NCBI GenBank assembly: GCA_024636755.1
Contig: JAGXGL010000006.1
Coordinates: forward strand, 1 to 55,449
DNA: 55,449 nucleotides
From: Guyparkeria sp.
GTDB taxonomy: Bacteria; Pseudomonadota; Gammaproteobacteria; Halothiobacillales; Halothiobacillaceae
Direction of reading: 5' to 3'
Shown here: positions 13,721 through 30,523 of the stretch, in pieces
Layout: each line of letters starts with the position of its first letter
Numbering within the stretch: the stretch's first letter is position 1
Notes under the pieces: generated by a model
The model's database searches: none
What the model saw: the letters and a program-made list of their open reading frames with translations, nothing else
What the model was told of the DNA's origin: nothing
Program-made: the position numbers and the translations under genes

Positions 13721-14080
<360 letters not shown>

Positions 14081-27140: not shown

Positions 27141-28138
27141 GCGAGCGGACACAGGCCCTTGGTCGCGTGATGGTGCTGATGGGCGGTTGGTCGGCCGAGC
27201 GTGACGTTTCGCTGGCCAGCGGTCGGGCCGTCCACGAGGCATTGCTCTCCGCTGGGGTGGATGCGATCGGCGTCGATCTCGATCGCGCCGCTGCCCAGGA
27301 ACTGGGCCATCGCCTGGTGGCCGAGCGGATCGACCGGGTCTTTATCGCCTTGCACGGTCGTGGTGGCGAGGACGGTCAGGTCCAGGCATTGCTGGAACTG
27401 GCCGAGGTGCCCTACACCGGCAGCGGCATGGCCGCCTCGGCGGTCGGCATGGACAAGGTGATGTGCAAGCGCATCTGGCAGGGCGCGGGTCTGGACACGC
27501 CCGCCTTCTCCGTGGTCGACAGCCTGGCCGCGGCCCGCGAAGCCGCCGAGTCGATGGGCTGGCCGGTGATCATCAAGCCGACGGCAGACGGCTCGAGCGT
27601 GGGCGTGAGCAAGGTCGATGAACCGGCGGGCGTCGAACAGGCGTTCCGCGAGGCCGCCCTCCACGGCGAGGTGATGGTCGAGCAGTTCATCGCGGGGGGC
27701 GAGTACACCGTCGCGATCCTCGGTGAGCAGAGCCTTCCGGCGATCCGTATCGAGGCGAGCGCCGAGCATGCCTTCTACGACTACCAGGCCAAGTACGAGG
27801 CCGAGGACACCGGCTACCGGATCCCCTGTGGCCTCCCGGACGAGGAAGAGGCCCGGCTGGCCGAGGTCGCCCGGACGGCCTTTGGCCTGATCGGCGCCCG
27901 TGGTTGGGGCCGAGTGGATTTCATGCACGACGCCGAGGGGCGTCACTGGTTGATCGAGGTGAACACGGTCCCCGGGATGACCAGTCATTCGCTCGTGCCC
28001 ATGGCCGCCCGTGCGGTAGGCGTGGACTTTCCGGGGCTGTGTGTCGCGATTCTCGAACAGACCCTGGTCAACCCCGCCAACCTAGTCAACCCGGATGAGG
28101 CGTCCACGGGAGGTGAGTCGGCTGATGGAGCGATTTGA
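27137..28138 (+). CDS. ddlB: D-alanine:D-alanine ligase DdlB
   Basis: This 333-residue ATP-grasp enzyme makes the D-Ala-D-Ala dipeptide used by MurF. It has the GGWSAERDVSLASG start, HGRGGEDGQVQ near 74, IIKPTADGSSVGVSKV near 148-163, and a C-terminal ADP-grasp region with WLIEVNTVPGMTSHSLVP near 273-290. About 15-20 extra residues follow the usual end. ATGA overlaps join it to murC and ftsQ. Confidence 0.96.
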   Translation: MSERTQALGRVMVLMGGWSAERDVSLASGRAVHEALLSAGVDAIGVDLDRAAAQELGHRLVAERIDRVFIALHGRGGEDGQVQALLELAEVPYTGSGMAASAVGMDKVMCKRIWQGAGLDTPAFSVVDSLAAAREAAESMGWPVIIKPTADGSSVGVSKVDEPAGVEQAFREAALHGEVMVEQFIAGGEYTVAILGEQSLPAIRIEASAEHAFYDYQAKYEAEDTGYRIPCGLPDEEEARLAEVARTAFGLIGARGWGRVDFMHDAEGRHWLIEVNTVPGMTSHSLVPMAARAVGVDFPGLCVAILEQTLVNPANLVNPDEASTGGESADGAI

Positions 28139-28947
28139 TGACAACGCGACGAGCCTCCCGAGTACGGCCCCGCGGACCGAGCTGGCACGACCGCTGGACT
28201 GTATTCGTCACTGGCCTGCGGGTGGCGTTGCGCTGGGCCTGGCGGATCGGCCTGTGGCTGGCCTTTGTCGCCGCAGTGGCGCTGGTCTCGCAACGGGTCT
28301 GGCTCAAGCTCCAGTCGCCGGTGGCGGCACTGGAGATCGACGGAACCAACCGTTTTGTCACCGAAGAGCAGGTGCGACAGGAACTCTGGCCGGCTCTCGG
28401 GCAGGGCATCTGGGCGGTGGATATCACGGCGTTGCGCGAGCGACTGCTGAACGACGGCTGGCTTACCGAGGTGCGTATCACCCGGCAATGGCCGGACCGA
28501 CTGTTGGTGAGCCTGCAGACCCATCAGCCGATCGCCGCCTGGAACGAGGAGCGACTGCTGAGTGCGGCGGGTGTGGTGTTCGCGCCGCAGCGGCGTCCGG
28601 TCGATCTACGCTTGCCGAGGCTGGCCGGTCCCACCGGCAGCCAGTGGACCGTCTGGGAGCGCTACACGAGCCTCAAGCCGGTGCTTGCCGGCGTAGGGAT
28701 GGAGCTGACCGGCGTGGCCATGAGCCCGCGCGGCTCGTTGAGTCTGTCGCTCGCCTCCGGGGCGGTGATCCAGACCGGGCAGGAATCGCTGGAGGCGCGC
28801 CTGCAGCGACTTCTCGACGTCTATCCGGACACGCTCGCGGGGAAGATGGATCAGGTCGAGCGGATCGACCTGCGCTACAGCAACGGTTTTGCCGTGGCGT
28901 GGCGCAACACGGACGACGAAACAAACAACAAGACAACACAAAACTGA
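28135..28947 (+). CDS. ftsQ: Cell division protein FtsQ
   Basis: This 270-residue bitopic divisome protein has a basic cytoplasmic N-terminus (about 1-38), one membrane helix (about 40-58), a periplasmic POTRA domain starting ALEIDGTNRFVTEEQV (about 70), and a beta domain ending LRYSNGFAVAWR. An unusual polar tail (TDDETNNKTTQN) follows, encoded by a run of A/C-rich codons unlike the rest of the gene. FtsQ recruits FtsL and FtsB. The usual tight junction to ftsA is broken here by a 331-base gap. Confidence 0.93.
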   Translation: MMTTRRASRVRPRGPSWHDRWTVFVTGLRVALRWAWRIGLWLAFVAAVALVSQRVWLKLQSPVAALEIDGTNRFVTEEQVRQELWPALGQGIWAVDITALRERLLNDGWLTEVRITRQWPDRLLVSLQTHQPIAAWNEERLLSAAGVVFAPQRRPVDLRLPRLAGPTGSQWTVWERYTSLKPVLAGVGMELTGVAMSPRGSLSLSLASGAVIQTGQESLEARLQRLLDVYPDTLAGKMDQVERIDLRYSNGFAVAWRNTDDETNNKTTQN

Positions 28948-29278
28948 CAACAGGGATGGTAGGGGAGTTCTGCACGATTCGATGGCGCCTCTGGCTCGCG
29001 GATTTGTTCGCCAAGACGCCGTGTCGAAGGCGGGCTCATTGCCCGGCGAGGGGCGGCAACGTCGAGTGCGGGCAAATCCGCGAGCCCCATCGGGGCGGGC
29101 CGCCAAGGACCCATTTGCGGCGTTGCAGTCCTTGTAAAGGACCACCGTCATTCACGGCGGACTGCGCCTTGCAACTGGGCCCTTGGCGGTCCCGCAGAGG
29201 CACTATCGAATCGTGCAGAGTTCCCCTCGGGAGCCAGGAACGATCGGAAACCATGGCAATCAAGGGCAGAAACAGAGC
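28948..29278. other. Intercistronic gap between ftsQ and ftsA
   Basis: This 331-base gap interrupts a cluster in which other junctions are four-base overlaps or nearly so. Several open frames cross it, but none has a ribosome site or recognisable product. Most of the gap is the self-complementary element at 28961-29227; the remainder is an A/C-rich left flank and a short leader containing a nine-codon frame before ftsA. Confidence 0.8.
28961..29227. repeat. Large self-complementary element (MITE-like or structured RNA)
   Basis: Terminal inverted repeats of 33 bases (28961-28993 and 29195-29227, cores starting AGGGG and ending CCCCT) match at 29 of 33 positions. In coding-sense RNA three of the four differences are G-U pairs, leaving one C-A mismatch. 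Inside are two further arms: a perfect 14-bp pair, 28993-29006 with 29073-29086 (CTCGCGGATTTG core), and a 16-bp pair, 29097-29113 with 29176-29192, with one mismatch and one G-U. The second arm contains smaller hairpins such as GTCCTT-GTA-AAGGAC (29128-29142). It encodes no transposase, and I see no clear target-site duplication. Confidence 0.8.
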
Positions 29279-29282
29279 ATGA
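29253..29282 (+). CDS. Possible nine-residue leader peptide before ftsA
   Basis: ATG at 29253 opens a frame encoding MAIKGRNRA whose TGA (29280-29282) overlaps the ftsA ATG as ATGA. A GGAAA stretch sits just upstream. It may supply translational coupling to ftsA now that ftsQ is 331 bases away. So short a frame can easily arise by chance. Confidence 0.25.
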   Translation: MAIKGRNRA

Positions 29283-30523
29283 GCGCGTTGAGAAAAGGAG
29301 AGCGGGAGTTCGTTGTCGGACTCGACATCGGCACCAGCAAGGTGGCGGCCCTCGTTGGCGAATGCGACGGCGACGGGCGGTTGAGCCTGATCGGCTATGG
29401 CTCGCATCCGACCAACAAGGGGCTGCGGCGGGGCTCGGTGGTCGATATCGAATCCACGTCGATGGCGATCCGCCGCGCGATCGACGGGGCGAGCGCCTTG
29501 TCGGACTGTGAGATCGGCTCGGCCTGGGTGGGTGTAGCCGGCGATCACGTGCGCAGCATGGATTCGCAGGGGATGACTGGCACCGGTGGGCGAGAGATCA
29601 CCGACGCCGACGTCAAGCAGGTGATCCAGTCGGCCCGGGCGGTCAAGATCCCCGACGGCCAGCAGATCCTGCACTGCGAGCCGCAGGAATTCCGTATCGA
29701 CGGTCAGGACGGTATCCGCAAACCGCAGGGCATGAGCGGCCATCGGCTCGAGGCGAACGTGCACATTGTCACCTCGGCGGCAAACAACGTGCAGAACGTG
29801 ATCAAGTGCGTCGAGCGCTGTGACGTGCATGTCGAGGGCACCATCCTCGAGCCGATAGCCGCCGCCCGCGCCGTGCTCAACGACGATGAGCGCGAACTCG
29901 GGGTGGTGCTGATCGACATCGGCGGTGGCACTACGGATATCGCCATCTACACGGGTGGGGCGCTGCGCTACGCCGCCGTGCTGCCGATTGCCGGCGAGCA
30001 GATCACCAACGATCTGTCCTACGGCCTGACCACGCCGCCGACCGAGGCGGAAAAGATCAAGATCAACCACGCCAACCTGGGCGCACTGGACGAGCGTGAG
30101 GCCTCGCGCGCCATCGAGGTGCCGGGGGTTTCCGGCCGGCCGCCGCGGCGTATCCCGCAGGAGACGATGATGCGCATCGTCCGCCCGCGGGTGGAGGAGC
30201 TCCTCTCCTATGTGCAGGAGGAGATCCGCCAGTCGGGCTGCCAGAACCTGGTGAATGCCGGCGTGGTGCTGACCGGCGGCACGGCGCAGATGCCGGGCTT
30301 TGTCGAATTGGCCGAAGACTTTCTGCAGATGCCGGCCCGACTGGGCACGCCCCAGGGCGTGGTCGGCAATCTGGATGCCTTGGGAGACCCGGCGAACGCC
30401 GCCGGGATCGGCTTGATGCTGCACGGGCTGGAACAGGCCCGCGAACAAACGGCCCATGGACCGTCAATGGCCCATGGAAATGTTCTGGAACGGCTCAAGG
30501 GCTGGTTCCGTGATCACCTTTGA
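29279..30523 (+). CDS. ftsA: Cell division protein FtsA
   Basis: This 414-residue actin-like ATPase tethers FtsZ to the membrane. It shows GLDIGTSKVAALVGE (about 14-28), the SHS2/1C domain, the phosphate-2 loop VVLIDIGGGTTDIAIY (about 208-223), GGTAQMPGF near 336, and a C-terminal amphipathic membrane-targeting helix (VLERLKGWFRDHL). ATG 29279 gives the family-typical N-terminus. The ribosome site is weak (GGGC 14 bases upstream), so coupling with the short upstream frame is conceivable. Confidence 0.96.
   Translation: MSALRKGEREFVVGLDIGTSKVAALVGECDGDGRLSLIGYGSHPTNKGLRRGSVVDIESTSMAIRRAIDGASALSDCEIGSAWVGVAGDHVRSMDSQGMTGTGGREITDADVKQVIQSARAVKIPDGQQILHCEPQEFRIDGQDGIRKPQGMSGHRLEANVHIVTSAANNVQNVIKCVERCDVHVEGTILEPIAAARAVLNDDERELGVVLIDIGGGTTDIAIYTGGALRYAAVLPIAGEQITNDLSYGLTTPPTEAEKIKINHANLGALDEREASRAIEVPGVSGRPPRRIPQETMMRIVRPRVEELLSYVQEEIRQSGCQNLVNAGVVLTGGTAQMPGFVELAEDFLQMPARLGTPQGVVGNLDALGDPANAAGIGLMLHGLEQAREQTAHGPSMAHGNVLERLKGWFRDHL

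Follow-up and report, generated by a model that had tools for sequence, protein, structure and literature searches.

The window analysed here is a stretch of 55,449 nt from Guyparkeria sp. (contig JAGXGL010000006.1), in which ftsQ is separated from ftsA by a long self-complementary sequence. An earlier note on this DNA had offered two explanations: a MITE-like insertion, or a structured RNA between the cistrons by which FtsQ is decoupled from FtsA/FtsZ, perhaps through RNase III or partial termination. Is this a mobile element that lies in a cell-division operon, or a regulator of that operon? We conclude, with a probability of about 0.82, that the whole is a MITE-like insertion with a conserved, covarying core, probably mobilised in Guyparkeria by an IS5-family enzyme, in which ends have been exchanged between lineages and a role as RNA is weakly indicated. 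Mobility and the conservation of the core are well supported.

The outer inverted repeat that had been described (28961–28993 with 29195–29227; 33 nt, 29 of 33 identical) was confirmed, and a pairing check placed both arms at the reported positions, including a perfect 14-bp stem. The element is indeed self-complementary, but its limits had been drawn too wide, at 267 nt (28961–29227); removal of the target duplication left 263 bp as the best estimate (Table 1). The arm 1 stem, which includes the perfect 14 bp, pairs 28993–29011 with 29068–29086 (19 nt, 89% paired identity), and the arm 2 stem pairs 29097–29118 with 29171–29192 (22 nt, 86%). The plan is TIR, hairpin (sense), hinge, hairpin (antisense) and TIR', forming a dyad-symmetric three-way junction. 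The + strand folded at −180.2 kcal/mol, compared to −113.1 ± 5.3 for dinucleotide shuffles (z = −12.6), and none of 200 shuffles gave an equally stable fold; the value for the − strand was −168.8 kcal/mol (z = −12.2). Reading frames run through the element by chance.

Table 1. Coordinates of the element between ftsQ and ftsA, its parts and its neighbours (positions in the window).
Feature	Position	Strand	Basis or remark
Whole element, MITE-like, 263 bp; Guyparkeria family A	28963–29225	+	Dispersed copies in own genome; genus-wide copies; orthologous site empty in 8 congeners
ftsQ, upstream neighbour	28135–28947	+	Stop codon 15 nt 5' of the element; identity from position and sequence
ftsA, downstream neighbour	29279–30523	+	Start codon 53 nt 3' of the element
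Target site, left copy (GTAG), degraded duplication	28959–28962	.	Empty sites of congeners; 4-bp duplications of the family
Target site, right copy (CTCG)	29226–29229	.	3 of 4 positions as in the TTCG empty site
Left terminal inverted repeat, with GGRANNTCTGCACGAWT as its IS5-type outer 17 nt	28963–28993	+	
Right terminal inverted repeat	29195–29225	-	Repeat pairing
Arm 1, hairpin module in sense	28993–29086	+	Covariance model R1 match at 28999–29080, E = 5.7e-10
Arm 1 conserved internal-loop bases, 5' side	29012–29019	+	CAAGACGC; consensus CAAGGCGC
Arm 1 conserved internal-loop bases, 3' side	29056–29062	+	GCAACGT; consensus GCAACGC
Hinge separating the arms	29087–29096	.	~20 nt between model matches in nearly every genus examined
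Arm 2, same hairpin module on the opposite strand	29097–29192	-	Covariance model R1 match at 29102–29187, E = 3.5e-23
CAAGGCGC of arm 2	29164–29171	-	GCGCCTTG when read on the + strand
GCAACGC of arm 2	29120–29126	-	GCGTTGC when read on the + strand

The element was searched against the host genome and its relatives, as the earlier note had proposed. The host genome (1.78 Mb) gave 31 matches, corresponding to ~18 separate copies, and matches at E ≤ 0.001 were present in 15 of 57 related genomes and in four of the genera among them. Contigs of Guyparkeria/Halothiobacillaceae, including Halothiobacillus MAGs, contained 84 stretches with the element, and congeneric Guyparkeria genomes had dozens of copies each. 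Copies in Guyparkeria were mostly 264–266 bp long and formed two sequence families, A (90 copies, including that of the window) and B (38 copies), which have a common plan and differ in most stem sequences. Several family A copies (L007, L008, L094, L098 and L142) are split in arm 2, at much the same point, by additional GC-rich palindromic sequence, and therefore match in two pieces.

The ftsQ–ftsA junction lacked the element in all eight congeners in which it could be read. There it reads ...CAGGGATG TTCG/TTCC GGAGCC..., or a diverged equivalent, giving empty sites of the form GATG-TTCG-GGAGCC or GATG-TTCC-GGAGCC, and the two genes lie about 65 nt apart rather than touching, as had been taken to be the norm. 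The 4-mers that flank the window copy differ from each other, and are probably a degraded 4-bp target duplication. A clean duplication was seen elsewhere (L142/L174), where CCAG stands on both sides of the element and the empty site has a single CGAG. Identical flanking 4-mers were found in 30 of 97 near-full copies, versus 7.0 expected by shuffling, and the favoured target is CTAG/YTAR-like. A TA duplication of the IS630 kind, considered from the TA at the ends, was ruled out, since alignment of the flanks at 4 bp gave 51–55% matches per position, with lower values at other lengths, and the empty sites fit 4 bp. These comparisons show that 28963–29225 is a MITE-like insertion in an otherwise uninterrupted ftsQ–ftsA gap and that, among the congeners examined, the insertion there is specific to the species of the window. 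The element is short, multi-copy and dispersed, has terminal inverted repeats, and comes with target duplications and empty sites; since the mobile features tested agree, it is of the MITE kind, and the first of the two explanations offered earlier is borne out.

Two further observations concern copies elsewhere in the genus. One genomic site with the same flanks carries the element in opposite orientations in two species (L035 in G006 and L036 in G005), through either in-place inversion across the TIRs or two hot-spot insertions. Guyparkeria also has many much shorter TIR pairs (about 45–200 bp; for example, G009:C1:2138276–2138330 and G003:C7:57390–57457), which either derive from internal deletion or make up a second size class.

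The outer end of the element, GGRANNTCTGCACGAAT, resembles IS5-family ends. An IS from Halothiobacillaceae (L178) has GGAAGGTCTGATCAAT at its ends, is flanked by TTAA duplications and encodes a transposase that matches the IS5-family model NF033581 of NCBIfam (E = 6.7e-89), while another IS5-type element (L340) has GGAACCTCTGATCAAT ends and CTAG flanks. G172, which belongs to another family of the class, has a broken DUF772 IS5-family transposase remnant (L337) next to CTAG followed by GGAACCTCTGCACGAACCGATAGTG, an end that differs from the common Guyparkeria ends at 1 of 25 positions. Guyparkeria elements thus have IS5-type ends and a 4-bp YTAR-like target, and we infer, on strong grounds, that an IS5-family transposase has mobilised them in trans, recognising GGRANNTCTGCACGAA and producing the 4-bp duplications at YTAR-like targets. 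A search for partners with the same TIR yielded only the G172 remnant, plus IS5 elements whose TIRs are related. Guyparkeria gave no intact IS5 element with exactly this TIR, and PF01609 transposases are almost absent from the genus, so the partner may have been lost. A PF01609 IS in G002 (L143) was rejected as a partner due to its different TIR, as was the transposase of G233 (L361), which has no matching TIR. A search of ten genomes for autonomous partners of the remaining TIR types yielded none beyond the match in G172; among the loci examined in the other nine, no host IS with the same TIR was found.

The two ends of a Guyparkeria element evolve in concert: at the free TIR positions 5–6 they agree in 96 of 109 copies (29 expected), yet vary between copies. 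It had been pointed out that, of the four outer mismatches, the coding strand has G-T at three and C-A at the fourth, and that this would fit selection on coding-sense folding, though a single copy could not prove it. The count is correct, but the excess is due to chance, as TIR mismatches in all Guyparkeria copies comprise 116 G-T versus 104 A-C.

The interior behaves differently from the TIRs in this respect. Arm 1, and arm 2 once reverse-complemented, form the same ~86-nt hairpin with conserved internal-loop bases, in the order stem P1, CAAGGCG, P2, P3, CAAG, P2', GCAACGC and P1'. The two hairpins are placed head-to-head across a hinge of about 10–20 nt, so that a sense copy comes first on either strand. 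When 28 arms were aligned with MAFFT, blind to structure, 89% of the cells were paired, compared to 35–48% after sliding the partners, and two-sided changes were seen in 24 of 27 pairs. A larger alignment of 90 arms from 47 loci, which was made to the covariance model and, unlike the first, leans towards it, gave 92% paired cells and two-sided changes in 27 of 27 pairs. Outside Guyparkeria, the hairpin had G-U in 167 cases against A-C in 21 (8:1); 75 arms were G-U-rich and none showed the reverse. The inner helices have frequent conserved U-G wobbles, and there was no G-U bias in the outer seven P1 pairs or in the TIRs. Four loci from several genera (L324, L327, L329 and L317) have GCCTAG or GCCTAA instead of the consensus GCCTTG in the second arm, resembling the YTAR target.

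Judged from the aligned sequences, the hairpin is maintained as a folded single strand in the sense orientation, given the strong covariation and the 8:1 ratio of G-U to A-C. It probably folds as RNA, although tolerance of G-U also fits single-stranded DNA. A different process, perhaps DNA-level palindrome correction, may operate at the outer P1 pairs and the TIRs, and part of the pairing may be kept in this way, since these positions have no G-U bias. The suggestion of RNA folding in the earlier note thus fails for the TIRs and holds for the inner hairpins, where the changes seen across ~45 genomes are compensatory and strongly biased to G-U. Dispersed copies with duplications and compensatory changes had been presented as alternatives; in this element, both are true.

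A covariance model of the hairpin found matches in 114 of 369 gammaproteobacterial genomes (about 31%) and 89 of 271 genera, with E-values down to 1e-25, and in 85 of 398 genomes of a phylum sample that included other Pseudomonadota classes. Most loci examined had a + arm, a hinge and a − arm; in one exception to this dyad plan (L306:12–200), both hairpins have the same orientation (+,+). The element in L001 had no match in Rfam 15 at E ≤ 5, and relatives in L043 and L123 had only far sub-threshold matches to miRNA models over the element. The only gathering-level Rfam matches in the window were RNase P RNA class A (13723–14078) and a tRNA (21–93). No description was found in the full-text literature searched, where the P. 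fluorescens R-repeats and the Coxiella QMITEs came closest.

The TIRs do not seem to have travelled with the core. We compared 26 elements from different genomes, taken as genus representatives, all 260–271 bp long and all with TIRs. Mean identity was 0.71 in the core (0.52 for random sequence) and 0.49 in the TIRs (0.46 for random sequence), and the TIRs fell into 20 clusters. Nucleotide searches gave no match in plasmids or phages with the window copy, and none in plasmids with cores from two other genera (L295 and L313). When a Pseudomonas-like core was used in blastn, Halomonas, Pseudomonas aeruginosa and Azotobacter plasmids were matched over the core only and not at the ends, which are of a further type, GGGYCTGTTGACGTTT. 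These plasmid copies are unannotated where gene tables exist. One of them, on the P. aeruginosa PA83 plasmid (NZ_CP017294.1, 8543–8847; L363), lies between acyl-CoA dehydrogenase and CoA-transferase genes that run in one direction, and is likely to be another intra-operon insertion. The comparison strongly suggests that ends have been exchanged, and gives moderate support to the core being a separately conserved module that acquires new ends in each lineage and hitch-hikes on different transposases. The flanks are CTAG-like in most of the differently-ended elements; the carriers may therefore all be IS5-type enzymes, which is supported for the Guyparkeria type only.

The position of the copies bears on what the core does for its host. 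Neighbouring genes were tandem, divergent and convergent in 90, 39 and 28 cases, versus 89, 37 and 31 expected from intergenic DNA (chi-square p = 0.80, from crude gene calls made for this analysis), and no orientation bias relative to genes was found. The P. fluorescens repeats, by comparison, avoid operons and are biased to convergent gene pairs, which their authors ascribe to termination (PMC2718517). It is very improbable that the host has selected the element as an intercistronic regulator, decoupling FtsQ from FtsA/FtsZ via RNase III or partial termination. The insertion does lie along the direction of transcription of a presumed operon, a stable 263-nt fold would enter the mRNA, and RNase III is on record as cutting the transcripts of Correia elements at their TIRs (reviewed in PMC10969869). 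An effect on ftsA expression is possible; nothing indicates selection for such an effect. However, conservation at ftsQ–ftsA, as expected of a terminator or an ftsQA-specific regulator, was not seen, the element being absent from this junction in the eight congeners. Our analysis of the window and its relatives found no evidence for host regulation of ftsQA, and copies track the length of intergenic DNA. Moreover, the same element recurs dozens of times per genome, flanked by unrelated genes and with no bias in arrangement or orientation, so the locus-specific function proposed for it earlier is not supported. The presence of the folded core in about a third of the gammaproteobacterial genomes sampled, with different outer ends in each lineage, points to a structured genetic parasite that is widespread and undescribed, and not to a regulator of cell division.

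A neutral insertion context would also be shown by an internally deleted IS5 with a functionless passenger interior, in which pairing reflects TIR palindromy and template-switch correction of imperfect palindromes at replication. The concerted TIR positions (96/109) and the equally rare G-T and A-C mismatches are what DNA-level correction would give. The core, on the other hand, keeps its unpaired bases (CAAGGCG and GCAACGC) and a constant plan and length across many genera, has the 8:1 bias to G-U, and remains recognisable next to unrelated TIRs, as passenger DNA would not. This explanation is therefore improbable overall: it is largely refuted for the core, and viable for the TIR stem and the outer arm stems. 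The main rival, which we consider rather unlikely, is that the hairpins act as single-stranded DNA, for example at replication forks, recruiting a host or transposase factor in the manner of attC or REP, with RNA irrelevant. DNA hairpins tolerate G-T pairs, the symmetric layout presents one sense hairpin per DNA strand, the outer stem is strictly Watson–Crick, and the element is a DNA transposon. Against this, conserved U-G wobbles at the frequency seen in the inner helices are more usual for RNA. In IS5-type DDE transposition the ends are double-stranded, and folding of the interior DNA is not known to be required. If the core does act as single-stranded DNA, it would point to an unrecognised step in IS5-type mobilisation.

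The absence of avoidance, the sense hairpin offered from either side and the RNA-like conservation suggest instead a role at the transcript level that keeps insertions tolerable. Our best guess, a tentative one drawn from sequence comparison, is that the core acts as an RNA that protects the insertion or passes transcription through it. An IS5-family transposase would mobilise the Guyparkeria element in trans, and the core would pick up fresh TIRs in different lineages and so travel on different transposases. Either strand would offer the sense hairpin first, and transcription would be protected or passed through the insertion. The cost of inserting into transcribed DNA would thereby be lowered, and insertion into operons would be near-neutral for the host, leaving the element heritable. 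It is conceivable, at less than even odds, that mobile elements of this kind form a class apart, in which a structured RNA module with dyad symmetry persists across Pseudomonadota via the TIRs of locally active IS and offers RNA polymerase a sense hairpin whichever side it arrives from, so that its own insertions are transcriptionally silent or a conserved host factor is recruited. Such a class of its own would be deserved if both the end exchange and the RNA role are confirmed; a core that suppresses polarity would amount to a portable transcription module, independent of orientation. The ~190-nt covarying core, which has no Rfam entry, would rank among the more widespread undescribed structured elements of bacteria. 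The role of a MITE interior becomes a testable question here, where conservation across genera is higher in the interior than in the mobilising ends, and strong covariation in an operon gap need not imply host regulation.

Several known systems resemble the element in part. Bacterial IS-derived MITEs (Correia/NEMIS, RUP, P. fluorescens R0/R2) share its small size, long IS-like TIRs, lack of a transposase gene, short target duplications and many intergenic copies, but each is tied to one TIR and one IS and has a narrow host range, and none of those reviewed here has a conserved folded core that occurs across genera on different TIRs (PMC10969869, PMC2817692, PMC2718517). Members of the IS5 family (in the ISfinder sense; NF033581) have the same 4-bp duplication at YTAR-like sites and a TIR start of GGAANNTCTG, as in L178, L340 and L337, whereas the present 263-bp element has no transposase gene and its interior is not IS sequence. 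Coxiella QMITE1 and QMITE2 are likewise structured gammaproteobacterial MITEs able to yield small RNAs; they are set apart by their descriptions, QMITE1 having 300–400 bp and 2–3-nt repeats, and QMITE2 150–190 bp, 7–11-nt repeats and a GTAG REP (PMC5896051). REP/BIME palindromes, which move with RAYT transposases, are also intergenic, paired in opposite orientation and conserved in their hairpin features. They are defined by a 20–40-bp palindrome with a GTAG-type foot, dependence on RAYT and no target duplication, while the present element combines TIRs and IS5-type ends with a 4-bp duplication and has an ~86-nt hairpin with internal loops. Among eukaryotes, SINEs with a highly conserved domain, such as the V-SINE HCD, provide a case of a conserved non-coding module that survives on different mobile carriers; the HCD is reported to have been carried later by the DNA transposon MER6 (PMC6887750). 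The likeness is one of analogy only, since sequence and mechanism are unrelated.

The junction downstream of the element contains one further small feature. A 9-codon ORF (MAIKGRNRA) at 29253–29282 ends in an ATGA that overlaps the ftsA start, and a counterpart precedes ftsA in six congeners; in L149 and L152 its ATG is missing.
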